Part shown: piece after piece, positions 1 to 46,363 of the stretch | Numbering within the stretch: the stretch's first letter is position 1 | Layout: every line of letters starts with the position of its first letter | Source of the DNA: a virus | DNA length: 46,684 nucleotides | Strand: one strand, 5' to 3' | IMG/VR virus record: IMGVR_UViG_3300003324_000105 | Location: 1-46,684 of that record | Translations under genes and position numbers: made by a program | Notes under the pieces: generated by a model | The model's database searches: none | What the model saw: only the letters and a program-made list of their open reading frames with translations | Told to the model about the DNA's origin: nothing

Positions 1-267
1 CGTTATCCTATGCGAGGATAGGCAACACACTACAGGTTAACGGTGTATATGCCTTCTGACCTGGGAGTTCGCAAATGCTAAGGCATGTTTGTAATTTGTG
101 GGGTATGTAGGAACTCGAGACGTCGTAACTTGGTTAGGCAATCCCGTAGACGAAGTTAGGCAGACCCTAAGCGAGAACTAGCGCCAGGACCGAAACTGAC
201 CCCCCCTCTATAGGGGGGTCAGACGGGTGGCGCACGCCTCCGAGGGGACTCCTGGCAGAAGACTCGA
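1..267. repeat. Left copy of 267-bp terminal direct repeat
   Basis: These bases recur base for base at 46418-46684. The molecule is therefore linear with a 267-bp direct terminal repeat, or a 46417-bp circle read past its origin. The repeat lies wholly within a gene-free stretch (46309-46417 joined to 1-474), which suits a packaging or end region better than a random assembly overlap. It contains a small hairpin (TATCCT/AGGATA, 4-20), two copies of GTTAGGCA (133-140 and 155-162) and a GC-rich perfect hairpin (196-222). No plausible gene is seen in it. Confidence 0.9.
196..222. other. 10-bp GC-rich perfect hairpin in the terminal repeat
   Basis: CTGACCCCCC (196-205) and GGGGGGTCAG (213-222) are perfect reverse complements around a 7-base loop. 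No T-run follows on the + strand and only TTT on the - strand, so it is a poor intrinsic terminator. Its place inside the terminal repeat makes a packaging, end-processing or replication role possible, but that is inference. The copy in the right repeat lies at 46613-46639. Confidence 0.7.
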
Positions 268-410
268 GATTCCCGCTCGAGATGAACAGTCGAGCTAACA
301 ACTACTGACTCAGATTGAGCTCAACCAAGCTCAGTATCTACTGGCTTGAGCAGGCTCTGAGCTGGCGGCTCCCGAACGACGACCGCGAGCGTTGCGCTGC
401 GGGCATGACA
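268..410. other. Gene-free stretch after the left repeat
   Basis: No gene is seen. It holds paired CTCGAG hexamers (the first spans the repeat edge near 264, the second near 279), a 10-bp palindrome TTGAGCTCAA (315-324), and several further GAGC/GCTC segments up to 360 that could fold. It separates the terminator at 411-452 from the terminal repeat. Confidence 0.5.
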
Positions 411-452
411 AAGCGCCCGGCCGATCCCCTTTCGAGGACCGACCGGGCGCTT
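411..452 (-). terminator. Intrinsic terminator of the leftward gene 475-1176
   Basis: AAGCGCCCGG (411-420) pairs perfectly with CCGGGCGCTT (443-452), with further CG pairing inside. Read leftward, the stem ends in CTTTGTC, a short U-run. It starts 23 bases after the stop codon of the leftward gene at 475, where a terminator is expected, and would stop transcription before the terminal repeat. Confidence 0.7.
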
Positions 453-474
453 GTCCCTTCTGTGTGACTCGGTG

Positions 475-1176
475 CTACTTGTTGCCCGACTTGTCAGGTT
501 CGGGAGTCGCAGCTGGTTCGGCGACGATCCAGCCGGTCGTTACGTCCTCGCCTCGCACCTTGACAGTGAACTCGGCCGACGTGGTCAGAGTGCCGTCCCA
601 ACCGGCGGCCTTCAAGAGTTCTTTGAACTCGGCCACCGGCATCTTGAATGGTGCGTAGAACGCCATGGATGACAGAGTGTTCTGGCCCTCAGACTTGAAC
701 ACCTTCTCGCCGTTCTTGACGTAGTAGTAGCTGACGCCCTTCGAGGCAGGCGTGCTACCGCCGGTCGAACGAGTGGCTTTCGGTGCGGTCGGCAGTTCGA
801 CCTTGTCGGCACCCTCGAGGCCGAGTTGGATCATGACGTTCTTCATGGACTCGGCCTCGGTGACCAGCGTGTCCCGTTGCGCCTTGAGTGCATCGATCTC
901 GGCGGTCGACACGTTCGCCTTGATCCACGCATCCCGGCACTCGGTGTGGACCTGCTTGACGATGGACAGTTGCAACTCGAGTTGCGTGATGACGTCACGA
1001 AGAGTGTCGCCCATGCCCAGGAATGCGAGGCTGTCGGCGGCCTCTTCGCCACGCTTGAGTTGTGTGGCCATGTTGCCACGAGCGGCCGTCAACTTCTCGT
1101 CGATAGCCTTGAGTTGATCGACCTTCGTCGTGAGTGCCGACAGGTCGAGTGAAACGGATTTCTTGGCGTTTGCCAT
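475..1176 (-). CDS. Phage protein with N-terminal coiled coil, paralogue of 38762-39601
   Basis: The 233-aa product has a long helical N-terminal half (about residues 5-125, heptad-like, rich in Leu, Ala, Lys, Glu) and a small C-terminal domain with SSMAFYA, FKELLKAAGW and an aromatic/basic end. The gene at 38762-39601 has the same order: coiled coil, Ser/Gly/Thr linker, SSLAFYA, KELKELLAKNG, then a short beta-like end. The two are therefore diverged duplicates. I chose ATG 1176 because its own promoter (1234-1262) lies inside the longer reading frame, and AGAAGGGA sits about 12 bases upstream. It is followed by a terminator, so it forms a single-gene unit, with the SOS-like palindromes at 1308-1403 upstream. 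The function is not recognised. The coiled coil suggests an oligomeric, perhaps DNA-binding, protein. Confidence 0.85.
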   Translation of the reverse strand: MANAKKSVSLDLSALTTKVDQLKAIDEKLTAARGNMATQLKRGEEAADSLAFLGMGDTLRDVITQLELQLSIVKQVHTECRDAWIKANVSTAEIDALKAQRDTLVTEAESMKNVMIQLGLEGADKVELPTAPKATRSTGGSTPASKGVSYYYVKNGEKVFKSEGQNTLSSMAFYAPFKMPVAEFKELLKAAGWDGTLTTSAEFTVKVRGEDVTTGWIVAEPAATPEPDKSGNK

Positions 1177-1233
1177 TGTGATCGAGTGTCCCTTCTGACC
1201 GGTGGTCGGGGGTCCTTCCCCCTTCCAAGTACA

Positions 1234-1262
1234 ACAGTACGCTCGTCGTGGTCTAGCGTCAA
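1234..1262 (-). promoter_or_regulatory. Leftward promoter of 475-1176
   Basis: Read leftward, TTGACG (1257-1262) is followed by a 17-base spacer and TACTGT (1234-1239), giving a start near 1227 and a leader of about 50 bases. The spacer holds TGGTCTAG on the + strand (1249-1256), the element shared with the other early promoters. The -10 is weak, so activation or regulation is likely. Four GAAC-N4-GTTC palindromes begin 46 bases upstream of the -35. Confidence 0.65.
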
Positions 1263-1520
1263 CCCCCACTCGTGACTATTTGGCGAATGACCCAAACGAG
1301 CTAGTCCGAACGAGCGTTCGACGAACGAGTGTTCCCGAACGTGTGTTCGTTGCGAGCGCAACTGTTGCGAGCGCAAACATCGCCGAGGGGCGAACGTCTG
1401 TTCGACTCGGAAGTCGATCGAGGAAACTCAGGGCCACGGCGAGATAATCGAGCCCCTAAGTCTGCGGGAGATTCATCTTCTTCCCACTAGACCACAATTT
1501 CTTCCAACACTAACTCAGAG
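1263..1520. promoter_or_regulatory. Palindrome array: four SOS-type boxes and two 12-bp palindromes
   Basis: This gene-free stretch of about 260 bp contains four GAAC-N4-GTTC elements at 1308-1319, 1323-1334, 1337-1348 and 1392-1403, most flanked as CGAAC....GTTCG. Between the third and fourth lie two identical perfect palindromes TTGCGAGCGCAA (1350-1361, 1365-1376). Start-to-start spacings are mostly 13-15 bp. GAAC-N4-GTTC is the known LexA (Cheo) box of Bacillus and Actinobacteria. Two readings are possible: DNA-damage control of the downstream gene, or an iteron-like replication or partition site. The remainder (1404-1520) shows nothing clear. Confidence 0.75.
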
Positions 1521-1709
1521 TTACGCAACATGCTTGGGTGGCCACTCTTTGTCGAATTCCTTCTCGGCCGCTAAGGCTTCCTCCTTCGTGTGGTAGTACC
1601 CGAGCGAGATGCCTCGGCCACCCCTCCTCCTGTAGGCTTGCCAGGGCTTCTTTCGGGCTACTCGGATACCGTCTTGTCGGACGTGACTATATGGAACTAG
1701 CTTTGGCAC
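1521..1709 (-). CDS. Small AP2-like DNA-binding protein
   Basis: The 62-aa product has one recognisable segment, from GIRVARKKPWQAYR through GRGISLGYYHTKEEALAAE to FDKEW. This matches the AP2/ERF-like pattern (W-x-A-x(n)-LG-x-(Y/F)-x-T-x-EEA-x-A) seen in phage homing endonucleases and small phage DNA-binding proteins. There is no nuclease domain, so it is a stand-alone AP2 unit. GTG 1709 was chosen because a strong AGGAGG lies just upstream (1716-1721); an in-frame TTG at 1715 is less likely. It overlaps the end of the next gene upstream by 23 bp and so is translationally coupled. It lies beside the palindrome array at 1308-1403, which makes it a candidate binder of that array. Confidence 0.75.
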   Translation of the reverse strand: MPKLVPYSHVRQDGIRVARKKPWQAYRRRGGRGISLGYYHTKEEALAAEKEFDKEWPPKHVA

Positions 1710-2226
1710 GAGCAACCTCCTGAATCGAGTCGGACATAGGTCGAGTGCGAGAAATGTTCACTATTAACGGAAAGAATGCTTTGTTGGGAGCTAATTCTCG
1801 CATCTTGGCGAGGAGATACCCACTGAGCGGCATGTGAGGGGCGTCGTGCCCCTTCTCGAGGGTACAGATGGCATCTAAGTCGTGGAACTCGTACTCACAC
1901 GGCTCGACTTTGATCTGCTCGCCCTCGTGATTCGTGACGTACCAAATTCTCGACATGTCGATCACCGTGAACAGGAGACCTGATAGTGAGTGAGCTTCAG
2001 CTACCGCCACCTGTAGTAGGTTGCTGGAGGATTCTCGGGTGAAAATAGGTAGGTCGGTCGGCCAGGCTCGCTCGACAAAGCATTCTTCCCAACCCCAACC
2101 TGCTTGGTGACAGTGCTCTCGTGAGGAGTCACAGGTGATTTTGTGATTGTCGCCTTCCAGTGCTCCACAGTCTCCGCAGTACCGGAAGTCTGAACGGGAA
2201 TCTGAGTCGTAATTAGAGCTAGACAT
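1687..2226 (-). CDS. Hypothetical protein with N-terminal zinc-ribbon-like cysteines
   Basis: The 179-aa product has CGDCG at residues 17-21 and later Cys/His (C32, H38-C39-H40, C49), consistent with a small metal-binding N-terminus. A mostly beta central part and a helical C-terminus follow. The family is not recognised. ATG 2226 overlaps the stop of 2226-2552 (TGATG), so the two are translationally coupled. Its 3' end overlaps the AP2-like gene by 23 bp. It belongs to the chain of small leftward genes that begins at 5634. Confidence 0.7.
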   Translation of the reverse strand: MSSSNYDSDSRSDFRYCGDCGALEGDNHKITCDSSREHCHQAGWGWEECFVERAWPTDLPIFTRESSSNLLQVAVAEAHSLSGLLFTVIDMSRIWYVTNHEGEQIKVEPCEYEFHDLDAICTLEKGHDAPHMPLSGYLLAKMRELAPNKAFFPLIVNISRTRPMSDSIQEVARAKASSI

Positions 2227-2552
2227 CAGTTCTGAGTGTTAGGAGGAACGATACCGAATTCTGCGAAGGTGGCTTGACCTTCTGGACTCGCAGCCCAAGC
2301 ATCTGCCTCCTCCTTGGTGGCATCGAACAGGCCAGACACTGCTCCAGATGCCACAATTTCGAGTCCTGCCGCTCTAGCGTCATGATACAGAGCGATCATA
2401 TTCATTGCGATCGGACTCAAGTAATCGTGATAGTAGTGAGTCTGAGCCTTGCGGATAATTTCGAGCGGGATGCTCTTGCCTTGGTCAGCCTCCATTTCTA
2501 GGGCTTCAAGAAGCCTGTCGGTTGAGGTTACTCCAGTCCGTGGGATTCTCAC
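2226..2552 (-). CDS. Hypothetical early protein
   Basis: The 108-aa product is acidic and mostly helical, with a C-terminal segment rich in Ala and Glu. No motif was recognised. The GTG start at 2552 is supported by AGGGAG 6 bases upstream on the leftward strand. Its stop shares one base with the ATG of the next gene. Small early genes like this in phages often encode host-takeover or anti-defence proteins, but nothing in the sequence shows that here. Confidence 0.65.
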   Translation of the reverse strand: MRIPRTGVTSTDRLLEALEMEADQGKSIPLEIIRKAQTHYYHDYLSPIAMNMIALYHDARAAGLEIVASGAVSGLFDATKEEADAWAASPEGQATFAEFGIVPPNTQN

Positions 2553-2561
2553 TCTAACTCC

Positions 2562-2831
2562 CTATGAGACGTACTGTTTAAGGTCGGGCCAACGGTCGAG
2601 CGACGTTCGCTGATCGTGCCACTCGAGCATTCCGTACAGGTTTCGGAGCATTGGTTTGAGGACCATTAGCTCTCGCTCGGCGTAAGATGCTCGATCTTCG
2701 GCAGCCACAGCGAATTTGGCCTGGTCGGTTCGTTCTCGTCTGCACGTTGACAGTTGAAGCTCAAGTTCTCGTTTCTCTGCTTCGAGTGAACGGAGCTTCT
2801 CGAGAAGGGCTTTTTCGTCGAGTCCACTCAC
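2562..2831 (-). CDS. Coiled-coil early protein
   Basis: The 89-aa product has residues 4-55 as an almost continuous charged coiled coil (LLEKLRSLEAEKRELELQL and onward), followed by a short Trp-containing tail (W72, W81). The start is GTG 2831, overlapping the previous stop as GTGA, a typical coupling signal. It is likely to oligomerise. No family is recognised. Confidence 0.7.
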   Translation of the reverse strand: MSGLDEKALLEKLRSLEAEKRELELQLSTCRRERTDQAKFAVAAEDRASYAERELMVLKPMLRNLYGMLEWHDQRTSLDRWPDLKQYVS

Positions 2832-3199
2832 TTGATTTCTCCTGATGGAACTCCGGGCTTGGGCATTGAGCCAAACGCCACAACAGAGGCCTCGAGCATG
2901 GCGTGCATGGTTACGAGTGCCTTTCCAAGGGCCTGCCGACCCTGTAGCGTGTCTAGGCCGTATTGCTGAGCTCTCTTGTAGTAGTTGAAGATGAAGTTGA
3001 TCCAGTAGGTCTCTTCCTCTTGGTGTGGGTCATTGATGAGCCGGAGAATTCCGTTGGCTCGTTTCTCAGGGTCCCATTTCTTGTCGGCGTAGAACTCTCG
3101 CTCTCGAAACAGCCAGGTGTTGACCTCGGTTCTGGCGTGGGATAAAGCTCTCTTGACTTCTGTGGGGTCTGAGAAGTTAATTCGGTCAGTCGATGTCAC
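2828..3199 (-). CDS. Hypothetical early protein
   Basis: The 123-aa product is helical, with aromatic residues in the middle (TYWINFIFNYYKRAQQYG) and a conserved-looking C-terminal helix with MHAML. The GTG start at 3199 lies 14 bp inside the end of the preceding gene, and its stop overlaps the next start as GTGA. It may be a structured protein-binding module. The function is unknown. Confidence 0.65.
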   Translation of the reverse strand: MTSTDRINFSDPTEVKRALSHARTEVNTWLFREREFYADKKWDPEKRANGILRLINDPHQEEETYWINFIFNYYKRAQQYGLDTLQGRQALGKALVTMHAMLEASVVAFGSMPKPGVPSGEIK

Positions 3200-3485
3200 T
3201 GCCTACCTCGATTCTCATTGGGTTTATTTGAGTGGCTCCAATGATTTCCAGCCGGATTGGAGCGCCTTTCTTGAGTTGCTCGACTTCTTCTTCGGAGGGT
3301 TGCCACCAACTGATCCATCTTGCAGATATTGGAGGTTTCCCCTGTAAAACGGCTCGAAGGTCCTCGACAATTAAGATTTCGAGGTCTCCAATGCCTGAGT
3401 CTGGAGGACCTTGAAAAACGGTTGGCATAGCGGTACCTGGTGCGAGTGCCTCTAGTGCCTTTCGAGGGATTGGCTTTGGCTCCAT
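3186..3485 (-). CDS. Hypothetical early protein
   Basis: The 99-aa product starts at ATG 3485, which shares one base with the stop of 3485-4006 (TAATG). A longer reading from 3548 would run back through that gene and lacks support. The centre is acidic and beta-rich (DLEILIVEDLRAVL), with WISWWQPSEEEVEQLKKG in the C-terminal half. No family is recognised. Confidence 0.7.
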   Translation of the reverse strand: MEPKPIPRKALEALAPGTAMPTVFQGPPDSGIGDLEILIVEDLRAVLQGKPPISARWISWWQPSEEEVEQLKKGAPIRLEIIGATQINPMRIEVGSDID

Positions 3486-4006
3486 TAAATCTCCATTTGG
3501 TCGATCAGCCAATCGAGACGGTTGGTTTGAGTAACCAATTGTGCCCAAAGGCTTGAAAATGCTTGAATGGTCTCGGATGCTGAGTCATCACAAAGACCGT
3601 CAAATGGGGTAGTTGGACTCGCCATGTTGTTGCGGATAGTGTGGGTTCGGTGATCTAGTCGATCGAGACGATCTGAGAGACGACCAATGGCCTCACTGAG
3701 AGCAGCGTGAACGTCAGGTAGCGTGGTACGACTTGATCCCTGGGCTGGAGATTTTCCAATGTTGGCTGTTATCATGGCACGCTCAGACAGATCAGATAGT
3801 TGCTCCATGTCCCGTTCAATCATGTTGACCTGGGCTTTTGCGTTGTGGTTCTCAGGAAGATTGACGATGATGTCTCCGTGAAGGTGAATCTCAGGCTCAG
3901 TACCTTGAGACTTGCTGTTTATTTCCTCCTCTATTGCGAGAGTCCAGGCGGTGTGATTCATACCTGGGTGAGTGTCACGGCACAGATACGGCTTGTGATC
4001 GGGCAT
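3485..4006 (-). CDS. Hypothetical early protein
   Basis: The 173-aa product starts at ATG 4006, with AGAGGAG 6 bases upstream and only one base after the stop of the zinc-ribbon gene 4008-4184. A GTG at 4078 in the same frame would overlap that gene and has no such site. The N-terminus has C9 and a HTAWTLAIEEEI helix (residues 18-29). The middle is beta-like and the C-terminal half is helical with repeated RLDRLDHR-type heptads. The function is not recognised. Confidence 0.65.
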   Translation of the reverse strand: MPDHKPYLCRDTHPGMNHTAWTLAIEEEINSKSQGTEPEIHLHGDIIVNLPENHNAKAQVNMIERDMEQLSDLSERAMITANIGKSPAQGSSRTTLPDVHAALSEAIGRLSDRLDRLDHRTHTIRNNMASPTTPFDGLCDDSASETIQAFSSLWAQLVTQTNRLDWLIDQMEI

Positions 4007-4007
4007 G

Positions 4008-4184
4008 TTAATCTCCTCTACAATCGACGCAGTCGTCTCCGTCGAATCTGAATTGGCTGATGTGTTTCCAGAGTCCACAGGATGGACAGATCATCCTGCG
4101 GTTTACTACTGTTCCCTCCTCAAAGGAGACTTCGATTACTTCCTCCTTTTTAGGTTCTGATTGTGGTTCTTGCTCCTTTGACAC
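4008..4184 (-). CDS. Small zinc-ribbon protein
   Basis: The 58-aa product was found by reading the gap between larger genes. It has an acidic, lysine-rich N-terminus, then CPSCG (C33, C36) and DCVDCRGD at the C-terminal end (C52, C55). The pattern CxxC-x(15)-CxxC is that of a zinc ribbon. The start is GTG 4184, with GGGAG 5 bases upstream, and it overlaps the previous stop as TAGTG. Its stop is one base from the ATG of the next gene. It is likely to bind nucleic acid or a protein partner. Confidence 0.7.
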   Translation of the reverse strand: MSKEQEPQSEPKKEEVIEVSFEEGTVVNRRMICPSCGLWKHISQFRFDGDDCVDCRGD

Positions 4185-4717
4185 TAAGCTCCCTTCGGGT
4201 TATTTGGGTCCGCATTGAGCCACTCCCGCATGTCGCCCTTGTGGGTAACAATTACGAGTGGTTCTCCTGTGTCCCAACGATATGCAACATCTATCCAGTA
4301 TCTAAATCTGGGATCAGGAGTCCAGACTTTCCTACTAACTCTGATGACGATGTATGTCACCATAATATTTGGTGAGTCGACTGGTTCTACTAGCGAGTTT
4401 GGAGCGTAGGGTTTGGTTTTGACTATCTCAAACTCACGTTGATAGTTGTTGACGTTGTTGAGTTGTTCTGTAATGTAATCGATGTCCTGCTCGTTTATCT
4501 CATTCCAGGCTTGTTCAGGCTCCGGCTCAATAGGAGGCAGATGAGGTGGAGATTTGGATTCTTTCTCAATAAGAGGAAGGTATTTTTCGGCGAACTCTTT
4601 GGTGATTTTGCCTGATCCAATGAGATAGCTGATCCACTCAGCCGAAGAGGGATTGTCGGGAGAATCTTCGCTGGCAGATGTCGATATATTTGTCGGAGAG
4701 CTCAAATCCAACGCCAA
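4184..4717 (-). CDS. Hypothetical protein overlapping the methyltransferase 3' end
   Basis: The secure part lies beyond the methyltransferase stop (below 4638). It is a helical, acidic, proline-containing middle (LIEKESKSPPHLPP) and a beta-rich C-terminal domain with VTYIVIRVSRKVW and WIDVAYRWDTGEPLVIVTH. The start is unclear. The frame stays open to 4909 inside the methyltransferase gene, but no ATG or good ribosome site lies near 4638. In-frame TTG codons at 4717, 4711 and 4705 are the nearest options, with an ATG at 4783. The coordinates given use TTG 4717 and may be wrong by tens of bases. A frameshifted read-through from the methyltransferase is another possibility. The function is unknown. 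Confidence 0.55.
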   Translation of the reverse strand: MALDLSSPTNISTSASEDSPDNPSSAEWISYLIGSGKITKEFAEKYLPLIEKESKSPPHLPPIEPEPEQAWNEINEQDIDYITEQLNNVNNYQREFEIVKTKPYAPNSLVEPVDSPNIMVTYIVIRVSRKVWTPDPRFRYWIDVAYRWDTGEPLVIVTHKGDMREWLNADPNNPKGA

Positions 4718-5492
4718 CTCGGCCGTGAATGCGTGCAGCCTCGACTGTAGTACCTGAACCAACAAATGGGTCGAGGACAACATCTCCTGCGAAGGAGTAA
4801 AGTCGTATGAACCGCTCTGCAAGACTAACGGGGAAGGTGAAAGGGTGTCCGAGAGCTCGAGCTTCCCTGTCAGCCGATATTTTCCATACGGGGTCCATGA
4901 GCCAGCCATGCTCTACCGACCCCAACTCTGATCGTTGTCGCTGCTCTTCTGAGTAGTCTGAGGCTTGCTTTCGACGTCGTTGGGAGAACTGGAGAGGCTT
5001 CTGAAAGACGAGTATGGGTTCGTACGTATTTGCAGATAGGATTCCCTTTGGGTACGGCCACGAGCCGCTAGGAGGACTGTAAGAGGCTCCTTTGTGCCAG
5101 ATGTATGTTTCACGGAGAATGAAACCCGCTCCCAAACATCGTCTGATGGTGGCCGCCACGTTTGGATACATACCGAGATCCCCGCCAGTTGGAATGTCGT
5201 AGAGGTTGATGGCCAACCACCCCAAGTCCTCGAGGAGGTCGAAACAAACCTTCCAGACCTGTTCGAGAATTTCGTGTGAAGCATTGAAATCTTTCGGATC
5301 AGGGAAGGTAACGTAATCAGGCTCTGGCTGTGCGACTCCTGGATAGGGAGGCGAAGTGAAGATGAGGGACACACTCGATCGCTCAACCACTTGTAGAGCG
5401 GCTCGGCAATCCCCTTGGTAGATTCTGACATTCTCATCCTCAACCTTCAACTCCGGGGTTGGGTACGGGGTACTGGACTCCTGGTCGGACAT
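4638..5492 (-). CDS. DNA methyltransferase (amino-methyltransferase, beta-type motif order)
   Basis: The 284-aa product modifies an exocyclic amino group of DNA, using S-adenosylmethionine. Motif IV is TSPPY at residues 46-50, the SPPY form common in N4-cytosine enzymes but also found in some N6-adenine enzymes. The SAM-binding motif I, DPFVGSGTT, lies near the C-terminus (about 241-249), so the motif order is the beta class. A central recognition region lies between them. There is no restriction partner nearby, so it probably protects phage DNA from host enzymes. ATG 5492 is preferred, with GGAG 10 bases upstream. ATG 5501 is too close to that site. The gene overlaps the RHH regulator by 53 bp and should share its transcript. 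Confidence 0.9.
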   Translation of the reverse strand: MSDQESSTPYPTPELKVEDENVRIYQGDCRAALQVVERSSVSLIFTSPPYPGVAQPEPDYVTFPDPKDFNASHEILEQVWKVCFDLLEDLGWLAINLYDIPTGGDLGMYPNVAATIRRCLGAGFILRETYIWHKGASYSPPSGSWPYPKGILSANTYEPILVFQKPLQFSQRRRKQASDYSEEQRQRSELGSVEHGWLMDPVWKISADREARALGHPFTFPVSLAERFIRLYSFAGDVVLDPFVGSGTTVEAARIHGRVGVGFELSDKYIDICQRRFSRQSLFG

Positions 5493-5634
5493 CTTTGACA
5501 TACTCCTTAACGGCCCGTCGGACCAGCTCGTAGATGGGAATTCCTGTGCGTTCCTCAAGAATTTGGAGTCGGAGGTAATCATCAGGAGGGATTGTACTCT
5601 TGACACTCACTCCTGGCTCTTTTCTCCTTACCAT
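5440..5634 (-). CDS. Ribbon-helix-helix transcription regulator
   Basis: The 64-aa product has a short basic N-terminus, a beta strand (GVSVKSTIP, residues 8-16) and two helices (DDYLRLQILEERTG, then YELVRRAVKEYVKD). This is the Arc/MetJ-type fold, which dimerises and inserts the strand into the major groove. It is the first gene of the leftward block. ATG 5634 lies about 7 bases downstream of the -10 (5641-5646), so the mRNA should be leaderless. Longer frames run back through the promoter and are rejected. It probably regulates the divergent promoters beside it, perhaps through the TGGTCT/TAGACCA elements, though that is inference. Confidence 0.85.
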   Translation of the reverse strand: MVRRKEPGVSVKSTIPPDDYLRLQILEERTGIPIYELVRRAVKEYVKDVRPGVQYPVPNPGVEG

Positions 5635-5640
5635 GTGTCC

Positions 5641-5670
5641 AGTATAGACCACATAGGCTTGACTTGTCAA
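5641..5670 (-). promoter_or_regulatory. Leftward early promoter (leaderless for the RHH gene)
   Basis: Read leftward, TTGACA (5665-5670) has an 18-base spacer to TATACT (5641-5646). The -35 is extended as CTCCTTGAC, as in four other early promoters. The predicted start falls on or beside the ATG at 5634. TAGACCA (5645-5651, + strand) overlaps the -10. It shares bases with the rightward promoter at 5659-5686, so polymerase binding on one side should exclude the other. Confidence 0.85.
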
Positions 5671-5686
5671 GGAGAAATGGTATAAT
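5659..5686 (+). promoter_or_regulatory. Rightward promoter of the late block
   Basis: TTGACT (5659-5664), a 16-base spacer and TATAAT (5681-5686), with TGG just before the -10, form a near-consensus primary-sigma promoter. TGGTCT (5686-5691) overlaps the end of the -10, placing the putative operator over the start of transcription. It overlaps the leftward promoter almost completely. The first gene starts at 5726. It is the only clear rightward promoter before 29245. Confidence 0.85.
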
Positions 5687-5725
5687 GGTCTTAGCGGGAA
5701 GGGAGCCCGAGCTGAAAGAAAGAGA

Positions 5726-6238
5726 ATGGACAACCCTATCAAAACCGCTCGAACTCGAGTTGGAAGAACACTGAAAGAGTTTGCTGAGGACTGTGGAGTC
5801 CATGAGCAAGCTGTGTTTCTTAACGAGCAGGGTGTTTATCCCCATGTTCTCCCGGCCATTGGGGCTCATCTACGAACTCTCGGTGTGAGTCGTCCATTTG
5901 AGGACTACGCTCAGTTCCAGCTTGAGCGTCGGCAGGCTGCCGGGGCCAGGTTTGACCTGTATATATACAGCCTTCCTGCGCCTGACGACAGGCACCCGGT
6001 GGTGGCCTTCCGAGAAGCGTTCGGAATGAGTAGAATGAAGTTCGCAAAGAGCTTCTGCGTGCATCCTGCTGAGCTTTACAGACTCGAGAACGGTCAGAAG
6101 CACGGTCTTTCTGAGCAATTCAAGGAAGCCATGCGGCAGGCTGGTCTGCGTGATACGGTCTTGGACGAACTCGAGTTTCGTATCAGGGAGTATGCCGAAG
6201 GTGAGTGGATCGGGAGTAATCAGCGGGGAGCAGCTTGA
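5726..6238 (+). CDS. Double helix-turn-helix regulator (XRE-like)
   Basis: The 170-aa product contains two HTH-like segments: residues 7-36 (TRVGRTLKEFAEDCGVHEQAV) and residues 94-123 (AFREAFGMSRMKFAKSFCVH, then PAELYRLENG). Both fit the pattern of lambda-Cro/XRE repressors, with the second ending in the usual YRLENG. It resembles a tandem repressor binding two half-sites. ATG 5726 lies about 33 bases after the predicted start of transcription, behind GAAAGAAAGAGA. It is transcribed divergently from the RHH gene, so the pair could form a switch. No integrase is present, so it could govern early/late timing rather than integration-based lysogeny. Confidence 0.75.
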   Translation: MDNPIKTARTRVGRTLKEFAEDCGVHEQAVFLNEQGVYPHVLPAIGAHLRTLGVSRPFEDYAQFQLERRQAAGARFDLYIYSLPAPDDRHPVVAFREAFGMSRMKFAKSFCVHPAELYRLENGQKHGLSEQFKEAMRQAGLRDTVLDELEFRIREYAEGEWIGSNQRGAA

Positions 6239-6911
6239 CGTCCTAGCTGCCTATGAGCAGCTCTTCTGGACACATGGTGCAGTTCCGACTGAGGAACGAG
6301 TAGCTGAGCTTACCGGCGTCCGACTTGAGACCGTCAAGAAGTATTGGCAGGACGATGAGTTTCGTCAACGCCTCCAGAAGCGTGGACTCCCTCTTGATGG
6401 TGGACGTTCTGAGCAGCTTCTGACCGTCCAACAACTCGATGTAGCCAATCGAATGCTCAATTTGGCTGACAACCGCTCTAAGCGTGAGAAGCTACAGGAA
6501 TGCGGGGTTTCGCCTCAACAGTACTCAGCCTGGTTGAGACAACCTGCCTTCCAGCAATATATGGCTCGACGAGGCGAAGAGCTGTTCAAATCTGCCGACG
6601 GGGATGCCTATAGAGCACTCGTCGGTATTGTTGAGGCTGGAGATGTTCAGGGCCTTAAGCTCTTCTTCGAGATGCGAGGAATCTACAACCCTCGTATGCA
6701 GGTCGATATAAATGTCGATGCTGTGATGCTCCAGGTGGTCGAGGTTATCTCCCGTCATGTCCGTGATCCTGAGACTCTTATAGCAATTGCTGAGGACTTG
6801 GAGCGTCTGGATATCCTTCCATCTGGCGGTGCCGGTCAGATATCTCGAAGTTCTCATGCCACCGCCATCCCTGTAGCATCAACTCAGGTCTCAGGTCAGT
6901 TCTCGATTTAA
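6192..6911 (+). CDS. Probable terminase small subunit (HTH protein)
   Basis: The 239-aa product has an N-terminal HTH (VPTEERVAELTGVRLETVKKYW, about residues 26-47), a second helical repeat with GVSPQQYSAWLRQPAFQQYM, and a helical oligomerisation region (FKSADGDAYRALVGIVEAG, then FFEMRG) like small terminases of the phBC6A51 type. It precedes the large terminase by three genes. Small terminases recognise phage DNA and load the packaging ATPase. ATG 6192 was chosen because AGGGAG lies 2 bases upstream and the longer frame from 6150 would lie deeper inside the previous gene. The family match is from memory of the pattern only. Confidence 0.65.
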   Translation: MPKVSGSGVISGEQLDVLAAYEQLFWTHGAVPTEERVAELTGVRLETVKKYWQDDEFRQRLQKRGLPLDGGRSEQLLTVQQLDVANRMLNLADNRSKREKLQECGVSPQQYSAWLRQPAFQQYMARRGEELFKSADGDAYRALVGIVEAGDVQGLKLFFEMRGIYNPRMQVDINVDAVMLQVVEVISRHVRDPETLIAIAEDLERLDILPSGGAGQISRSSHATAIPVASTQVSGQFSI

Positions 6912-6932
6912 TTAAGTAAAGGAGACCTCGTT

Positions 6933-7784
6933 TTGCCGAGTCTTGCTGATCTTCGTCGAGCCTTTTACAACGGCGGTGCGGATGCTGAGTACGCTGCGTT
7001 GATGCAGTTCTATACTGGAGGATACACGTTCAATGACGTGTATAACGTGGCAAAGGACTACCATAATGGTCTCCTAGGTGGTGGCGGGGGCGGAGGAATT
7101 CCTGCGACCACGTTTACTGCTAAAGGCCAGCTACTCATTGCAACTGCGGCAGGAGTAGTTGGAGTACATGCAGTTCCGGCAATTCGAGACCAAACTATCG
7201 TTGCTGATCCAGCTACAGCAGACGGTTGGATTGCCGACTTTGCGTTGGATCGAGGCGAGGCATACGCACGACCTACTGGAGCTATTGCTGAGACGTTTAG
7301 TCGTCGTAACCAGCTAGCAAACATTACAAACTCTGGAACGGCATCTGGAACTTTGAGAGTTATTGCCATCTTTCTTCCTAAAGATGTCTCGATAACTTCC
7401 ATTAGTTTTATGAGTGCCGCTACGGCTGGTTCGGCTATGACCAACCAGTGGTTTGCTTTACTGGATCAAAATATGAATGTGCTCGGCAAGACAGTAGATG
7501 ATGGAGCTGGTACATGGAATTCTAACGCCATTAAAACCCTCAACATAAGTGGAGGCCCATTTGTCACTACTTATGCAGGTCTCTACTACCTTGGGATTGT
7601 GGTTGTGGGTACGACTCTACCGACACTCTCAGGATTTATTGACACAGCTAGTGGACCTGATATGATGAATCCTGTGATGGCAGGTGAGTCTACTGGTGGT
7701 TTAACTGACCCAACGACTCTTGGCCCAATAGCAGCAGCTATTGGAGGGCAGAATCAGCGTAAGCCGTGGGCTTTTGTCTCTTAA
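6933..7784 (+). CDS. Virion surface or fibre-like protein with poly-glycine linker
   Basis: The 283-aa product starts at TTG 6933, with GGAG 8 bases upstream. Residues 1-46 are a small helical, aromatic domain that may anchor it to the virion. Seven consecutive glycines (about 49-55) then lead to a beta-rich C-terminal domain of some 225 residues rich in Gly, Thr, Ser and Ala, including a TSISFMSAATAGSAMTNQW segment. This looks like a jelly-roll or lectin-like domain as found in fibres, decoration or receptor-binding proteins. Its place between the two terminase genes is unusual for a fibre. The role is inferred from composition only. Confidence 0.6.
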   Translation: MPSLADLRRAFYNGGADAEYAALMQFYTGGYTFNDVYNVAKDYHNGLLGGGGGGGIPATTFTAKGQLLIATAAGVVGVHAVPAIRDQTIVADPATADGWIADFALDRGEAYARPTGAIAETFSRRNQLANITNSGTASGTLRVIAIFLPKDVSITSISFMSAATAGSAMTNQWFALLDQNMNVLGKTVDDGAGTWNSNAIKTLNISGGPFVTTYAGLYYLGIVVVGTTLPTLSGFIDTASGPDMMNPVMAGESTGGLTDPTTLGPIAAAIGGQNQRKPWAFVS

Positions 7785-7792
7785 GGAGTTAA

Positions 7793-8089
7793 GTGCCACT
7801 TAACCATATTGAAATCAATCGTACGGCCGATAAGATTTTCTCTGACATTGTCGACGACAATGGAAAGGTCGTTGGTAAGACGGTTGAGAGAATTCGTACG
7901 GCTGAGGATGATAGTCGAGATACGGTTCGCAACGGTTTGGCAGGCTCCTTTGACGATTTGAGAACCTATGTCAATACTCCTGCTGCGAGTGTAACCAATG
8001 CTCTGGTCGTATCCACCCTCAGAACAGTCTGTAAAGTGCTCATTTGGATGCTTCGTGAGCGTTTTCAGGATTTCTCAGGCTCGAATTAA
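7793..8089 (+). CDS. Hypothetical protein upstream of the large terminase
   Basis: The 98-aa product starts at GTG 7793, after GGAG. The N-terminal half is charged and beta/turn-like (SDIVDDNGKVVGKTVERIRT). The C-terminal third is an amphipathic to hydrophobic helix (NALVVSTLRTVCKVLIWML), too short and interrupted to be a sure membrane segment. It sits 8 bp after the fibre-like gene and could be its partner or chaperone. No family is recognised. Confidence 0.65.
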   Translation: MPLNHIEINRTADKIFSDIVDDNGKVVGKTVERIRTAEDDSRDTVRNGLAGSFDDLRTYVNTPAASVTNALVVSTLRTVCKVLIWMLRERFQDFSGSN

Positions 8090-11172: not shown

Positions 11173-13135
11173 CGCTTCTGGAGCACTTCTCCAGTTACCT
11201 CAACCAAAAGGTCAGGATAACCTCCTTCTGTCAACTCAGAATGGGGTTATCCTTGACTTTTGCCGTACTCGGCTTGAGGAGTGTCGCAAAGCCAGGTTGC
11301 AGTTTGAGACTGGTTGGTATACCAATCTTGCTTTCTATTTCGGAAAGCAGTACGTCCAGTGGAGTCCAACGTTTGGAACGTCTGCTGGTCAGTACCAACG
11401 TCTCTATGAGCCTCCAGCTCCTCCCTGGCGTGTTCGTCTCGTGTCGAACAAGATTCGACCGATTGTTCGGGCTGAGATTTCTAAAATCACGAAGGAGAAT
11501 CCTGAGGCCTTTGTGATCCCTGCCTCGTCAGATGACGACGATTTGGCGGCGGCTCGAGCGGCTGAACGAATCTTTGAGTGGGCTCATCGGGATATGAAGC
11601 TCCGACGGACGATGCGTCGAGCTGCATTCTGGCAAGTTCTCTGTGGAAACTCCTTCATCAAGGATTGGTTTGATCCCAACTCAACAGACTCCTCAGGATT
11701 GCCTGGTCAACTCAAAGCCGAGCATGTAACTCCATTTCATATCTATGTTCCTGATATGGAAGAGGAGGACATTGAGAATCAACCCTGTGTGATCCATGTT
11801 TCGGCCAAGACGCCTGGATGGGTTGAGGACAAATACGGCGTCCGATTGGAGCCGGACTCCCTGTCTGGCGGTGGAGTTCTTGAATCCAAGTTCCTCCAGG
11901 CGATTGGGGTTCAGCGACAGGGTGCTCCCGATCATGTGGCTGTGAAGGAGATTTGGGTCAAGCCGTGCGGAGATTGGCCTGATGGAGCGGTGTTTACATG
12001 GGCTGCTGAAACGGTTCTCTCTGCGATCCCGTTTCTTCCATTCGATCATGGGGAGTATCCCTTCACCAAGTTCGATCATATTCCTACTGGACGATTTTAC
12101 TCGGAATCTGCGGTTACTGACCTGATTCCACTCCAGAAGGAATACAACAGGACTCGCTCGCAGATTATTGAGTCGAAAAACAAGATGTCCAAGCCACAGC
12201 TTGCGGCACCACGAGGCTCCGTTGATCCCAACAAGATCACGTCTGAGCCTGGACTCATCGTGTTCTACACGCCGGGGTTCAATCCGCCCACTCCGATTCC
12301 GTTGCTCCCGATACCTGATTACGTCATTCAGGAGTTGGACCGTTGCCAGAGAGATATGGATGACATCTCTTCGCAGCACGAAATCACGAAAGGTCATGCT
12401 CCGCCAGGTGTCACAGCCGCTACTGCCATCTCGTATCTGCAAGAGCAGGATGACTCGAAACTTGCCGATGCTGTCTCCTCTATTGAGGAGGGGACGGAGA
12501 AAATCGGCAAGCACGTTCTGAGCCATGTTCAGCAATTTTGGGATTTGCCTCGAACAATCAGGGTTACAGGCTCTGATGGTGGGTACGAGGCGTACATCTT
12601 GTCTGCGGCCGATATTCGAGGAAATACCGACCTGAACATACAGGCTGGCTCTGCCATGCCTCGTTCTCGGGCTGCAAAGCAGGCGTTCATCATGCAGCTC
12701 GGTCAGATGGGCTGGATTCCTCCCGATCGTGCCTTGCGTTATCTCGACATGGCTGAGACTGGTCGCCTGTACGAGGAAATGCAGCTTGATGCTCGTCAGG
12801 CTCAGCGTGAGAATCTCAAGATGCTGAACGGTGAACAAGTTCTCCCGAACACTTGGGATGAGCATATCGTTCACATCATGGAGCACAACAATGAGCGAAA
12901 GAAGCAGAAGTTCGAGTCTGCTCCTGACAATATTAAGATTGCTTTCGAGCAACACGTTCGACTTCATCAGATGCAGATTCAGGTGATGCAGCAACAGCAA
13001 GCCGCTCAAGCTGCTCAGATGGGGCAGGGCCCCTCGAGTCCGCTTGCTCCGCCAGGCTCCCAGGGTCACCCTGCCTCCCGTCCCATCACTCAGCCGGTTG
13101 AAATGCCGCCAATCAACCCATTGGCCTCCCAATAA
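11165..13135 (+). CDS. Portal protein (P22-like)
   Basis: The 656-aa product forms the dodecameric ring at the capsid vertex through which DNA passes. The length and the N-terminal pattern (FETGWYTNLAFYFGKQYVQW, RPIVRAEISKITKENPEA, FWQVLCGNSFIKDWF) match P22-type portals of podoviruses. The stem/wing region includes VKEIWVKP, then SAIPFLPFDHGEYPFTKF and YNRTRSQIIESKNKM. The C-terminal 70 residues are Gln/Ala- and Pro-rich. TTG 11165 is used, with GGGAG 7 bases upstream. It follows the terminase cluster and precedes the scaffold and capsid. Confidence 0.92.
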   Translation: MSDASGALLQLPQPKGQDNLLLSTQNGVILDFCRTRLEECRKARLQFETGWYTNLAFYFGKQYVQWSPTFGTSAGQYQRLYEPPAPPWRVRLVSNKIRPIVRAEISKITKENPEAFVIPASSDDDDLAAARAAERIFEWAHRDMKLRRTMRRAAFWQVLCGNSFIKDWFDPNSTDSSGLPGQLKAEHVTPFHIYVPDMEEEDIENQPCVIHVSAKTPGWVEDKYGVRLEPDSLSGGGVLESKFLQAIGVQRQGAPDHVAVKEIWVKPCGDWPDGAVFTWAAETVLSAIPFLPFDHGEYPFTKFDHIPTGRFYSESAVTDLIPLQKEYNRTRSQIIESKNKMSKPQLAAPRGSVDPNKITSEPGLIVFYTPGFNPPTPIPLLPIPDYVIQELDRCQRDMDDISSQHEITKGHAPPGVTAATAISYLQEQDDSKLADAVSSIEEGTEKIGKHVLSHVQQFWDLPRTIRVTGSDGGYEAYILSAADIRGNTDLNIQAGSAMPRSRAAKQAFIMQLGQMGWIPPDRALRYLDMAETGRLYEEMQLDARQAQRENLKMLNGEQVLPNTWDEHIVHIMEHNNERKKQKFESAPDNIKIAFEQHVRLHQMQIQVMQQQQAAQAAQMGQGPSSPLAPPGSQGHPASRPITQPVEMPPINPLASQ

Positions 13136-13147
13136 TGGAGTAACACA

Positions 13148-13330
13148 ATGCCTTGGACGGGAAAGTCGTTCGCTCAGAAACACAACAAATCCTTGAGTGG
13201 GGCACAAGCCGACAAGGCAGCTCAGATAGCCAATGCCGTCTTGAAGAGTGGTAAGGACGAGGCTTCCGCAATAAGAATCGCCAACGCCACAATCCGACGA
13301 GTGAAATCAGGAGGAAAGAAGAGTGGCTGA
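13148..13330 (+). CDS. Small basic conserved phage protein
   Basis: The 60-aa product is basic and helical, beginning MPWTGKSFAQKHNKSL and continuing AAQIANAVLKSG, DEASAIRIANATI, with a Lys/Gly tail. This short pattern (KSFA-x-KHNK, then IANAVL and AIRIANA) is familiar from small uncharacterised proteins in phages and plasmids. ATG 13148 follows GGAG (13137-13140). It overlaps the next gene by 8 bp. The function is unknown; DNA binding is possible from the charge. Confidence 0.75.
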   Translation: MPWTGKSFAQKHNKSLSGAQADKAAQIANAVLKSGKDEASAIRIANATIRRVKSGGKKSG

Positions 13331-29291: not shown

Positions 29292-29606
29292 ATGGGGAGA
29301 ATCGTGCGAGAGCGTTGGCGCCAAGAGGCGGCTTGCCGTAACCGACCGAAAGATTTGTTCTTCTCGGAAAGTCAAGGGCAAATCAACCTCGCAAAGCACA
29401 TTTGTAAAACAGAGTGCTCAGTCCGTGCGGACTGTTTAGAGTATGCCTTGCGTCATGACGAAGTTGGAGTATGGGGGGCTACAGATTACGACGAGCGGAA
29501 GAAGATGCTAAGACTCTTTGGGCCAAATCTTCCTGACGCTCTTTCCGCAATGACAGTTGAGAACTCTAGCCCCGACAACGAAGGTCTCATGTTCGGCTCC
29601 ACATGA
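29292..29606 (+). CDS. WhiB-like iron-sulfur regulator
   Basis: The 104-aa product has the actinobacteria-specific Wbl fold: a first Cys (C15), then ICKTECSVRADCLEYAL with C38, C42 and C48, and the turn GVWGATDYDER (59-69) before a basic helix. Wbl proteins bind a [4Fe-4S] cluster and act with the primary sigma factor. Phage members are known to reprogramme host transcription. Here the middle cysteines are CX3C rather than the usual CX2C. It has its own promoter and a terminator, and its last 99 bp overlap the convergent gene 29508-29750. Confidence 0.92.
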   Translation: MGRIVRERWRQEAACRNRPKDLFFSESQGQINLAKHICKTECSVRADCLEYALRHDEVGVWGATDYDERKKMLRLFGPNLPDALSAMTVENSSPDNEGLMFGST

Positions 29607-30328: not shown

Positions 30329-32227
30329 CTAAGCAACCGACAACAGCTTGACGTCGACATCGAATGGAACTACAAATCGTTTGTCACGACTAGGCCACTC
30401 CATTAGGTACTTGACCTCCTTAATCCACTTCTCTCGGAAGTCGTCCACAATCTCAACCCAAATCGAGTCGTGGACTTGGTTGACCATTCGGTAGGCGTAC
30501 CCCTTGCCTTGGTCTGCAATCCTCAACATAGACTCTTCCATAACTACAGAGGCTCCACCCTGACAGATGACATTGAATGCGGCGTGAGTGTTATCCATGA
30601 CTCTCTTATACTTTGGAGAGTAACCTCGCCAATAACGCCTGCGCTGACCATCCCAGAGCTGCACGTATCCACGGCGCTTCATGAGAAGTGAGGCTTGTTG
30701 TGCTACCTTTCGCATTCCAGGGTATGTCTCGAAGAATCGGTCAAGAACAGCTTGAGCGTCCTCCACTGGATAGGAGACAATCTTACCAGTGGTCTGGAAC
30801 TCGAGTCGCTCGATAGTCCGTGCAAGAGTCGAAGCTTGTCCACCGTAGAGTACAGTGTATGTTGCGTGCTTAGCTGTCTGCCTCGAGGAGTTGATAAGAC
30901 TAGCAGTGACTTTGTGAGGGTCTTGTCCAGCTCGTAGAGCTGCCAGGAGAGGAGTAGCGTCTCCGTACATAGCGGCAAAGCGAAGCTCGATTTGGGAGTA
31001 GTCGAATTCGTATAGTCGCCATCGTGGTCGCCCTGCCCGGAAGAGCTTCTTAGTCTCTCGCTTGATATGGACATCGACTTCCTCACTCTCTCGAGGAATC
31101 TGATTTAGATTAGGCTCGGATTCAGAGATGCGGCCCGATAGAGTTCCTGTTGGGTTGATGGTCGGATGCAGCCTCCCATCTGGTCCTTTGTCACACCTAG
31201 CCGTGAAGCCATCAAACCATGTGGATTTGGCCTTGACAAGACCTCGGTACTGTAGGACACTGTTCACAAGAGGGACATCTGTGTACCGGCTGAGAATCTC
31301 TTGCGAGGTAGATGGAGTCCCATGAGGCCAGCCTGGAGAGGGGGTGTCAGACAATGCGCCAGGAAGAAGTCCTAGCCCTTCTGGAGGACTACCGAACAAC
31401 TTATTCACCAGTACGAGTCGCTTCCCAGGATCGAACCCCATCTGATCCTCGAGAACTCGCATCTGGCGTGCCGCCTCGGCGGATAGTTCTTCGCAACGCT
31501 GACGGTCTACACCAACTCCGTATTGCTCGATCCGCTGGAGCAGACGGACAAACCGATACTTCCGCTGGAGAATCTCAAGCTGCTTAGGATCCTCAGCCCT
31601 GAGTTTCTCCAGCAGGACGTGGCCGACATTCCAGTGAAGCTCGGCGTCCATGCAGGCGTACGGCTCCATCAACTTCGGTGGGATACCTGAGTAGCCTCCG
31701 TACGTCTGAGATAATTTCTTTTTACCGCCCTTGCGGTACTCTTTAAGAAGCTCTTTCAGCTTCTTCTCCTCTGCCGAGGATTCAGGGTCGATATGCAGGT
31801 CTGCTACTTCTTTTAGACCATGCTCTCCCCAATTCCTGAGCAGGTGTGCCATAATCGAGCCATCATGGAATGGAGACCTTCGTATGTCGATTCCATCCAT
31901 GAGCAACATCGTGGTGTCGAACTTCCAGTTGTAACACCAATACTGCTCGATGTCGGAACGTACGAAGCAATTTCCCAGCTCCTTCAACCATTCCATCGGA
32001 AGGTTCTCGCTTACGTCAAGTAAGCTCTCACCAGGCCGATGTCGGAATGGAAAGTATGCTGAGAGGAAATAATCAGTTCCCTCGATCTTACAGAAGGTTG
32101 AGACTCCACACAGCCGATCCCCCTCGTAAGGCAGCAACCCTGTCGTTTCAGTGTCAATGGATATCTCTTTGGCAGCCATCAACACTGTACGAACCCGCTC
32201 GAATTGATCTCTGCTTTGTACCAGCAT
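30329..32227 (-). CDS. Family A DNA polymerase with 3'-5' exonuclease
   Basis: The 632-aa product is the replicative polymerase. The exonuclease domain shows IDTETTG (D25, E27), NWKFDTTML (D104) and YACMD (Y190, D194). Polymerase motif A is DYSQIELR (409-416). Motif B runs R449, K453, Y457, Y461-G462. Motif C is VHDS (D587). There is no 5' nuclease domain, as is usual for phage enzymes such as T7 gp5. Tyr457 stands where E. coli Pol I has Phe762, as in T7. ATG 32227 shares a base with the helicase stop, so the two are coupled. Confidence 0.95.
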   Translation of the reverse strand: MLVQSRDQFERVRTVLMAAKEISIDTETTGLLPYEGDRLCGVSTFCKIEGTDYFLSAYFPFRHRPGESLLDVSENLPMEWLKELGNCFVRSDIEQYWCYNWKFDTTMLLMDGIDIRRSPFHDGSIMAHLLRNWGEHGLKEVADLHIDPESSAEEKKLKELLKEYRKGGKKKLSQTYGGYSGIPPKLMEPYACMDAELHWNVGHVLLEKLRAEDPKQLEILQRKYRFVRLLQRIEQYGVGVDRQRCEELSAEAARQMRVLEDQMGFDPGKRLVLVNKLFGSPPEGLGLLPGALSDTPSPGWPHGTPSTSQEILSRYTDVPLVNSVLQYRGLVKAKSTWFDGFTARCDKGPDGRLHPTINPTGTLSGRISESEPNLNQIPRESEEVDVHIKRETKKLFRAGRPRWRLYEFDYSQIELRFAAMYGDATPLLAALRAGQDPHKVTASLINSSRQTAKHATYTVLYGGQASTLARTIERLEFQTTGKIVSYPVEDAQAVLDRFFETYPGMRKVAQQASLLMKRRGYVQLWDGQRRRYWRGYSPKYKRVMDNTHAAFNVICQGGASVVMEESMLRIADQGKGYAYRMVNQVHDSIWVEIVDDFREKWIKEVKYLMEWPSRDKRFVVPFDVDVKLLSVA

Positions 32228-34011
32228 TAGATAGTGAAACTCCCCCCTAGCTCACTCTCGTTCACAGACTTTTGCTGCTCTTCACCATCATCCTTTAAGG
32301 TAATATCGGTGAGGATGACGTCCCCCTTTTCGTCGACAATCCCATTGACCATGCGAGTATAGTGCAGGTCAGCACTCCGTTTGATACGGAACTTTCCTGG
32401 ATTTGCACGAAGTCGAACCTTAAGAGGGATGAACTCAAGAGTGTTAGCGATCCCCGAGTCCCAGAGACAGACAACACTGGTTGCCCGAGCAGTGATGTAT
32501 TGATTCCCATATACATCAGAGAGTTTATTCGGTCTCTTATTCTCGCCCGACGCTTTGCGATGATGATGTATGAACCAGGTGAAGGCTCCCAACCGTTGCC
32601 GGAACCTGTCATTCCAGTCCATGAGGCTCTTAACTGCGGTTTCGTCAGAGAGAGAACCGTCCGTACTTGAACCCATCGAGTCAACAACGATACCGTCCAA
32701 CTTAAGGTCCCCCACAACTTGCTCAACTTGTTCTCGCACTTCTGGACGGGACAAATAAAGCGGTTCACCCAACGGGAAGATTTGAAAGTTCTTCTCAAGA
32801 AGCTCTAACTCCTCCTGGGAATACCCCTGCTTCTGCAACTCAAGGAAGTATTTAAGTTCTGGAAGATTCATCTCCAGCGAGAAGAACCCTAACTTGACCG
32901 GGCTACAGGGGGCATCAAGGGCAGGTTGGCCGAGTGCAATCTTCGCTGCGACGTCCAGAGATACCTGTGTCTTACCAACTCCAGATGGTCCTGTGAGACA
33001 CATATACCCGTGTTTTTGGAGCCAACCATCCCATATCCACTCGACATGAACGTTTGTCTTGAGTAGGCTCAGGAACCCTAGTGCCTGTAGCTTGGTGTGA
33101 GACTCTCCGTCAGTATTGCGCTCAGGAAACTTCTGACGAGCGATGGTGACGATTTCCATGAGTCGAACGTCACGATCAGCTCGACCATAGAACTTTCCCC
33201 ACCGTTGGTCGGCATTGAGTAGCATTGCCAGAATTTCCTCGTTGGAAAGACCGGCTTCCGCCAAGTAGAATCCGAGGGACATAAGAGCCCCTGACCGCTT
33301 ATGGCTGTCTGCACCGACTCCCTTGCGGAATAGCTTAATCGCCTGCTCGGGAAAGCGGTACTTGAGAACGACATCTTCGATAGGTGGAATACGCTCAGGA
33401 AGTGGTGCTTCCACCAGTGGAGGGGGCTCAGGCAGTCCATCAAATACAACTCGAGGGAACTGTCTGCTCGGTGACCAGTCAAGAAGCTCAACAGCCCGCT
33501 GGCGCTTGTGGTTAAGCGTTCGGGGAGGGCGAAGTATCTGCCCAGCGTCCCATCCCGAAGTGTCCGCTCCAAGAAGATAGGTGATAGCTCGATTGACCCG
33601 CTCAAGTTCGGCGGTTTCCACAAGCTCTCCGACGAGCCAGTACCAATGCTCATGATCGGCAGTAGACGACTGGATGCGAACTGATGGCTCTGGTACTCCG
33701 TCCAGCTTTGGTGGGAGGAACCCATCGAACTCACACCAAAAGACTCTAGCACCCTTAATGTGCTCTTTCTTTGCGGAAGGTTCCCGAAAGAGAGCAGGTG
33801 CTGTGTATACCTCGAATCGAGGTCGTTTGTCAACGACATGCGCTATCAACTCCTGACGTTGTCGAGGCCACTCGAAGAACGTCTGTTGGAATTGGAGTTG
33901 CATACCGGGGGCTTTGTGTGCAACGTAGACGTAACCGTTCTCTGCCCCATAGAGAAACTCGAAGAAGTCGGAAAGCGCCCTCTCATCGACGCTTAGTTCG
34001 TTCTGGCTCAC
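32227..34011 (-). CDS. Primase-helicase (AEP-type primase fused to RecA-fold helicase)
   Basis: The 594-aa product combines two activities. The N-terminal 200 residues resemble archaeo-eukaryotic primase/RepB-type domains: VFWCEFDGF (90-98), SSTADHEHWYWLV with H120 and H122, and RPPRTLNHK (161-169). After a helical linker with a PriCT-like part (about 210-300), the C-terminal RepA/AAA_25 helicase has Walker A GPSGVGKT (341-348), FFSLEM (376-381), Walker B GIVVDSM (440-446) and HHHR (482-485). It opens and primes the fork for the downstream polymerase. The C-terminal tail is acidic. Confidence 0.88.
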   Translation of the reverse strand: MSQNELSVDERALSDFFEFLYGAENGYVYVAHKAPGMQLQFQQTFFEWPRQRQELIAHVVDKRPRFEVYTAPALFREPSAKKEHIKGARVFWCEFDGFLPPKLDGVPEPSVRIQSSTADHEHWYWLVGELVETAELERVNRAITYLLGADTSGWDAGQILRPPRTLNHKRQRAVELLDWSPSRQFPRVVFDGLPEPPPLVEAPLPERIPPIEDVVLKYRFPEQAIKLFRKGVGADSHKRSGALMSLGFYLAEAGLSNEEILAMLLNADQRWGKFYGRADRDVRLMEIVTIARQKFPERNTDGESHTKLQALGFLSLLKTNVHVEWIWDGWLQKHGYMCLTGPSGVGKTQVSLDVAAKIALGQPALDAPCSPVKLGFFSLEMNLPELKYFLELQKQGYSQEELELLEKNFQIFPLGEPLYLSRPEVREQVEQVVGDLKLDGIVVDSMGSSTDGSLSDETAVKSLMDWNDRFRQRLGAFTWFIHHHRKASGENKRPNKLSDVYGNQYITARATSVVCLWDSGIANTLEFIPLKVRLRANPGKFRIKRSADLHYTRMVNGIVDEKGDVILTDITLKDDGEEQQKSVNESELGGSFTI

Positions 34012-46308: not shown

Positions 46309-46334
46309 GCTCTTAGTGTCCTTGTCATACTCTG

Positions 46335-46363
46335 ATTGTACCATATACTCTGTTATGTGTCAA
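46335..46363 (-). promoter_or_regulatory. Leftward promoter of the winged-helix regulator
   Basis: Read leftward, TTGACA (46358-46363) has a 17-base spacer to TACAAT (46335-46340), near consensus. Transcription should begin near 46328, with a 20-base leader. It lacks TGGTCTAG, unlike most early promoters, so it may be unregulated by that element. It lies 55 bp from the right repeat. Confidence 0.8.

Follow-up and report, generated by a model that had tools for sequence, protein, structure and literature searches.

The window analysed here, that is the whole stretch of DNA under study (46,684 nt of an actinobacterial phage genome), carries within a 111-base non-coding stretch (1307-1417) eight short palindromes placed end to end, several of which have the shape of a LexA box. 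Such a locus raises the question of whether the host SOS repressor is drawn to the phage genome or whether the palindromes serve a protein of the phage itself.

The palindrome array and its genomic setting

The ends of the window, 1-267 and 46418-46684, form a perfect 267-bp terminal direct repeat, which indicates a probably complete genome of 46,417 bp; the repeat may be physical or a product of circular assembly. The terminase, portal, capsid and replication genes group the window with podoviruses of Actinobacteria. By TerL, the nearest records are MW202795 (metagenomic, 43%), Arthrobacter phage Jasmine and its relatives, Microbacterium phage Shocker and Cellulosimicrobium phage DS1, and the nearest isolated phages have Actinobacteria as hosts. 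No near-identical relative was found by blastn in phage records. The features relevant to the array are the following.

475-1176, minus strand: P0001, a coiled-coil protein that has a small domain at its C-terminus; contig L239 contains a homologue (32%), and a weak paralogue lies at 38762-39601
1177-1520 (344 bp), no strand: non-coding stretch with the array, between the minus-strand genes 475-1176 and 1521-1715
1234-1262, minus strand: weak sigma-70-like promoter TTGACG-17-TACTGT for 475-1176, read by eye, under the promoter-scan threshold
1521-1715, minus strand: protein of 64 aa, similar to a portion of HNH endonucleases and AP2-like by eye (weak AP2-type match, E 0.2), adjoining the array
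5726-6238, plus strand: Xre-type HTH protein whose conserved gene opens the rightward operon; second candidate for binding the array
6150-6911: terminase small subunit, the array lying 4.7 kb from its gene
29292-29606, plus strand: transcription factor of the WhiB family (E 5.9e-18), its gene closing the structural operon
30329-32227: DNA polymerase
32227-34011: primase-helicase
45688-46344, minus strand: winged-helix protein, MarR/OhrR-like; candidate array binder

Jasmine and MW202795 carry annotated WhiB genes as well.

The four copies of GAAC-N4-GTTC (1308, 1323, 1337 and 1392) and the two of TTGCGAGCGCAA (1350 and 1365) were found exactly where the initial annotation had placed them. Its extent of the array was too short, since two further palindromes, at 1380-1393 and 1402-1417, join these six and render 1307-1417 almost wholly palindromic. 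The eight palindromes, to which no strand is assigned, are listed below.

1307-1320: palindrome 1, CGAACGAGCGTTCG, core GAACGAGCGTTC at 1308-1319; LexA-shaped
1323-1334: palindrome 2, GAACGAGTGTTC; LexA-shaped, right flank C, not G
1336-1349: palindrome 3, CGAACGTGTGTTCG, core GAACGTGTGTTC at 1337-1348; LexA-shaped
1349-1362: palindrome 4, GTTGCGAGCGCAAC, core TTGCGAGCGCAA at 1350-1361; TTGC-N4-GCAA type, as in contig L017
1365-1376: palindrome 5, TTGCGAGCGCAA; second copy of the palindrome 4 core
1380-1393: palindrome 6, TCGCCGAGGGGCGA; missed initially
1391-1404: palindrome 7, CGAACGTCTGTTCG, core GAACGTCTGTTC at 1392-1403; LexA-shaped
1402-1417: palindrome 8, TCGACTCGGAAGTCGA; missed initially

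The array is thus built of two main half-site types, GAAC-N4-GTTC and TTGC-N4-GCAA, with a pitch of about 14 bp (14-15 bp). Neighbouring centres (1313.5, 1328.5, 1342.5, 1355.5, 1370.5, 1386.5, 1397.5 and 1409.5) are 11 to 16 bp apart.

This arrangement is non-random. Only 0.96 copies of GAAC-N4-GTTC are expected in the whole window, and the sole exact copy outside the array lies within a gene, at 26780. When 1177-1520 was dinucleotide-shuffled 20,000 times, GAAC-N4-GTTC reached a maximum of two copies per shuffle, never three, and TTGC-N4-GCAA a maximum of one. When palindromes were counted with a minimum arm of 5 and a maximum loop of 4, seven were found in 126 bp at the array and at most three in every other 126-bp window of the genome. 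Together these results exclude chance, and the array is probably functional. An array of single-strand hairpins was also considered and rejected, its stability being just modestly above that of shuffles (z -2.6).

Across IMG/VR, three-box arrays of GAAC-N4-GTTC occur in 107 stretches and those of the unrelated half-site TTGC-N4-GCAA in 56, the latter search permitting a longer second gap than the former. Viral contigs therefore often carry palindrome arrays, which are not confined to the LexA motif. The array is probably an element of an ordinary kind, a phage-specific palindrome array. A literature search found no paper on such arrays in actinophages.

GAAC-N4-GTTC arrays of 6 to 8 boxes are present in L162 (128,966 bp; 3893-4056), L115 (17,919 bp; 12048-12179), L031 (68,530 bp; 13046-13253) and L184 (46,411 bp; 1305-1447), whose protein similarity to the window is at most weak; a search for a GenBank isolate matching the L162 or L031 arrays gave nothing useful. 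Other GAAC-N4-GTTC arrays lie inside HTH genes (L147, L155, L168, L199 and five others; L144, L146, L151 and five others). These genes resemble replication initiators, as in lambda-type origins, and the pitch of their arrays is mostly 21-24 bp.

LexA-shaped boxes and the host SOS response

The GAAC-N4-GTTC LexA box is in use in Actinobacteria. All four boxes of this type in the array fit the Gram-positive LexA core, and three of them carry the CGAAC...GTTCG flanks. Two of the options in the initial annotation were that host LexA binds here, either to place 475-1176 under DNA-damage control or to be titrated by the array as a LexA sink. The actinobacterial hosts of the nearest isolated phages are compatible with this proposal, as are the clustering of six LexA-shaped boxes in L184 and the use of host LexA at more than one box by Bacillus phage GIL01 (PMC4551915).

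Several observations argue against it. The boxes are located 45-140 bp upstream of the -35 element and do not overlap the promoter, itself a weak sequence match; the distance of about 45 bp reported initially is correct by eye, and a stricter promoter scan did not report the promoter. At 14-15 bp, the pitch falls short of the 18-20 bp footprint described for Bacillus LexA (PMC4551915), and TTGC-N4-GCAA and other non-LexA palindromes are found inside the same array. TTGC-N4-GCAA triple arrays are, moreover, common in IMG/VR, as counted above. Six-frame searches of the genome detected no LexA, S24 peptidase, tyrosine integrase, serine recombinase or ParB family, so that nothing points to a temperate, SOS-induced life. 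Finally, MW202795, Jasmine, Shocker and DS1 carry zero or one GAAC-N4-GTTC box, and none was found in the stretch upstream (2442-3098) of the 475-1176 homologue of L239. Absence of the boxes where the gene is kept was what the initial annotation had named as evidence against its own proposal, together with a lack of LexA or phage-protein binding; the L239 result partly bears out the first of these points, for a gene just 32% identical. Neither SOS control of 475-1176 nor a LexA sink is thus supported, and occupancy of the boxes by host LexA appears improbable. A purine-pyrimidine (R..Y) bias of the four central bases was tried as a LexA mark and discarded, since it reaches about 70% outside three-box arrays too.

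The coiled-coil protein encoded next to the array had been described as duplicated. The duplication is real, though the two paralogues are only weakly alike (27% over 84 aa, E 8e-5). The products of 475-1176 and 38762-39601 share a small C-terminal motif, SSxAFYA, and a homologue is present in L239. The structure model of P0001 is of low confidence (pLDDT 55), and a single-sequence search with P0001 returned no relative in IMG/VR, in phages or in seven TerL-related or array-bearing records. L239 was reached solely through the TerL profile, and a P0001 profile then recovered the same contig. In Jasmine, the gene at the place matching 475-1176 encodes an Lsr2 DNA-binding domain. Assignment of P0001 to the Lsr2 type was rejected, the Jasmine protein having no demonstrable similarity to the paralogue P0002; the paralogues may be members of a phage family of nucleoid-type proteins whose C-terminal domains are exchangeable.

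Repeats at the matching place in related phages

The nearest relative found is L239 (TerL 58%, methyltransferase 59%, Xre-type HTH 42% identical). It alone among the relatives has a clear 475-1176 homologue, 32% identical over 217 aa (E 1.7e-14). In L017 (TerL 48%, helicase 33% identical to the window) the gene order is that of the window: winged-helix gene, array-adjoining gene, non-coding array, Xre-type HTH gene, small and large terminase. The matching non-coding stretch of L017 (4812-5399), adjoining a minus-strand gene, contains five TTGC-N4/5-GCAA palindromes at 5168-5346; a count of two was attained in just 1 of 5,000 shuffles.

Repeats of yet other sequence occupy the matching interval of further relatives, some with AT-rich flanks: GAAC-N-GTTC and GGAACCTC with an AT-rich tract in L012, GTTAGGTATACCTAAC repeats in L315, ACTGACA and one GAACATGTGTTC in L015, TTGCCA/TGGCAA in L276, and GAGAAT/GTCTC in L242. 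In MW202795 (42.6 kb), all four genomic copies of the DnaA-box-like TATCCACA are gathered at 34185-34432, two of them being full TTATCCACA DnaA boxes. The Jasmine-like podoviruses (Jasmine, Shocker, DS1 and ctEqG8) have rightward structural and leftward replication genes, as in the window, and most carry repeats near the divergence point; none has a GAAC or TTGC array, and their nucleotide similarity to window 1-8000 is not detectable.

The location of these repeats was examined with an 8-mer based measure in 400-bp windows. Among the 14 relatives having a strongly repeat-dense window, nine have it 1.5-6.5 kb upstream of TerL, compared to 3.1 expected (P about 0.0005). This statistic is merely supportive, because it was framed after looking and because the matches include simple (L236, L256), coding (L269) and gene-start (L237) repeats. 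The top window lies outside this interval in L238, L244, L253 and L273, among others, and in the window itself the top region by this measure is 37.7-38.1 kb, not the array.

It should be noted that this last region has features of its own. The minus strand of 37690-38100 (non-coding gap 37571-38081) contains nested perfect inverted repeats of 21, 12 and 11 bp and folds as RNA at -183 kcal/mol (z -7.6, 0 of 100 shuffles as good), with no match in Rfam; L017 3090-3480 is likewise structured on the minus strand (z -3.4). The region may encode a structured phage RNA or be a second repeat element.

The GAAC boxes are not kept in the relatives; in several of them repeats of other sequence stand at that place. 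As judged from these comparisons, a repeat-bearing place seems to be kept in several relatives while the repeat sequences differ, which makes an origin or control site of the phage's own likelier than a switch operated by a host repressor.

Candidate binding proteins and possible roles of the array

Taken together, these sequence data lead us to favour, with a probability of roughly 0.45, a reading in which the array is a platform for a phage-encoded dimeric DNA-binding protein and most likely the initiator-binding part of a replication origin. Dimers of the phage protein would occupy successive palindromes about 14 bp apart and form a nucleoprotein array over the non-coding stretch, which would let the primase-helicase (32227-34011) and the DNA polymerase (30329-32227) load. 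The palindrome sequence would co-evolve with the binding protein, so that relatives would carry different repeats at the same place. Both the binding of the array by a phage protein and the start of replication there are inferred.

Of the two halves of the iteron-like origin or partition site suggested initially, the origin is the best fit among the options then given, and nothing supports partition, no ParB family having been detected. Clustered repeats in a short non-coding stretch, as in iteron origins, are present in the form of the eight palindromes, to which a protein would presumably bind. Known iterons are usually spaced by about 20-22 bp, compared to 14-15 bp in the array. No DnaA box was found in the window and no marked AT-rich tract was seen by eye in 1177-1520; AT-rich tracts or DnaA boxes occur in some relatives (L235, L012, L315 and L011). 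The cumulative GC skew has its minimum at 1631, and in relatives the minimum falls close to the switch of gene direction. Little weight was given to the skew, because no clean replichore switch is seen at 1.6 kb when four-fold degenerate sites are considered.

The main candidate for the binder would be the MarR-like protein encoded at 45688-46344, followed by the Xre-type protein of 5726-6238; both have counterparts in relatives. A profile of the winged-helix family, whose members in the window, L017 and Jasmine are about 20% identical to one another, has a PDB match to the MarR-family protein OhrR (E 5e-4). TTGC...GCAA half-sites occur among MarR sites, which offers a lead.

The same two proteins figure in the chief rival to the origin, in which either one binds several palindromes and switches the 475-1176 promoter on or off, perhaps along with the early region, and has no role in replication. 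Multi-palindrome arrays suit cooperative regulators, MarR-family sites are short palindromes, and the promoter-like TTGACG-17-TACTGT lies 45 bp downstream of the array. However, eight contiguous units are many for one weak promoter, array and promoter do not overlap, and some of the relatives' repeats at this place accompany AT-rich tracts or DnaA-like boxes. We regard an operator array as possible, though less likely than an origin.

Tandem palindromes are also able to form centromeres, and the array is located about 1 kb from the terminal repeat and 4.7 kb from the terminase small subunit gene, as might befit a partition or packaging-recognition site. ParB_N, however, had no match in the genome, no lysogeny genes were found, and the terminal repeat may merely reflect circular assembly. 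Such a site is very unlikely. Also very unlikely would be a mixed-array origin on which host LexA and a phage protein compete or cooperate, making the time at which the phage replicates depend on the host's SOS state.

If the array is an origin, it would represent a replication start that evolves rapidly within a little-studied group of podoviruses of Actinobacteria, its cognate protein would be among a few candidates and the replicon might be usable for plasmids. In any case, a run of near-perfect SOS-like boxes in a phage need not imply SOS control.

Among known systems, the P1 promoter of GIL01, with its cluster of Gram-positive LexA (DinR) boxes, resembles the array in box sequence and in having more than one box close together in a phage, but GIL01 is a temperate phage whose boxes immediately follow the transcription start (PMC4551915). 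The array, by contrast, lies upstream of a promoter, is tiled at about 14 bp with other palindromes and belongs to a genome in which no lysogeny genes were found. A parallel to an origin is offered by lambda-type origins, where a cluster of short dyad repeats (the O-protein iterons) in one small stretch is bound by the dimeric winged-helix O protein. The array shares this clustering of short dyad repeats but is intergenic, has a pitch of about 14 bp and two main half-site types, and adjoins no recognised initiator gene. The operators of MarR-family proteins (OhrR, MarR) are, like the units of the array, palindromes of about 12-14 bp, and on the circular map the gene of a MarR-like protein lies close to the array; these operators usually comprise one or two sites over a promoter, whereas the array consists of eight tiled palindromes.
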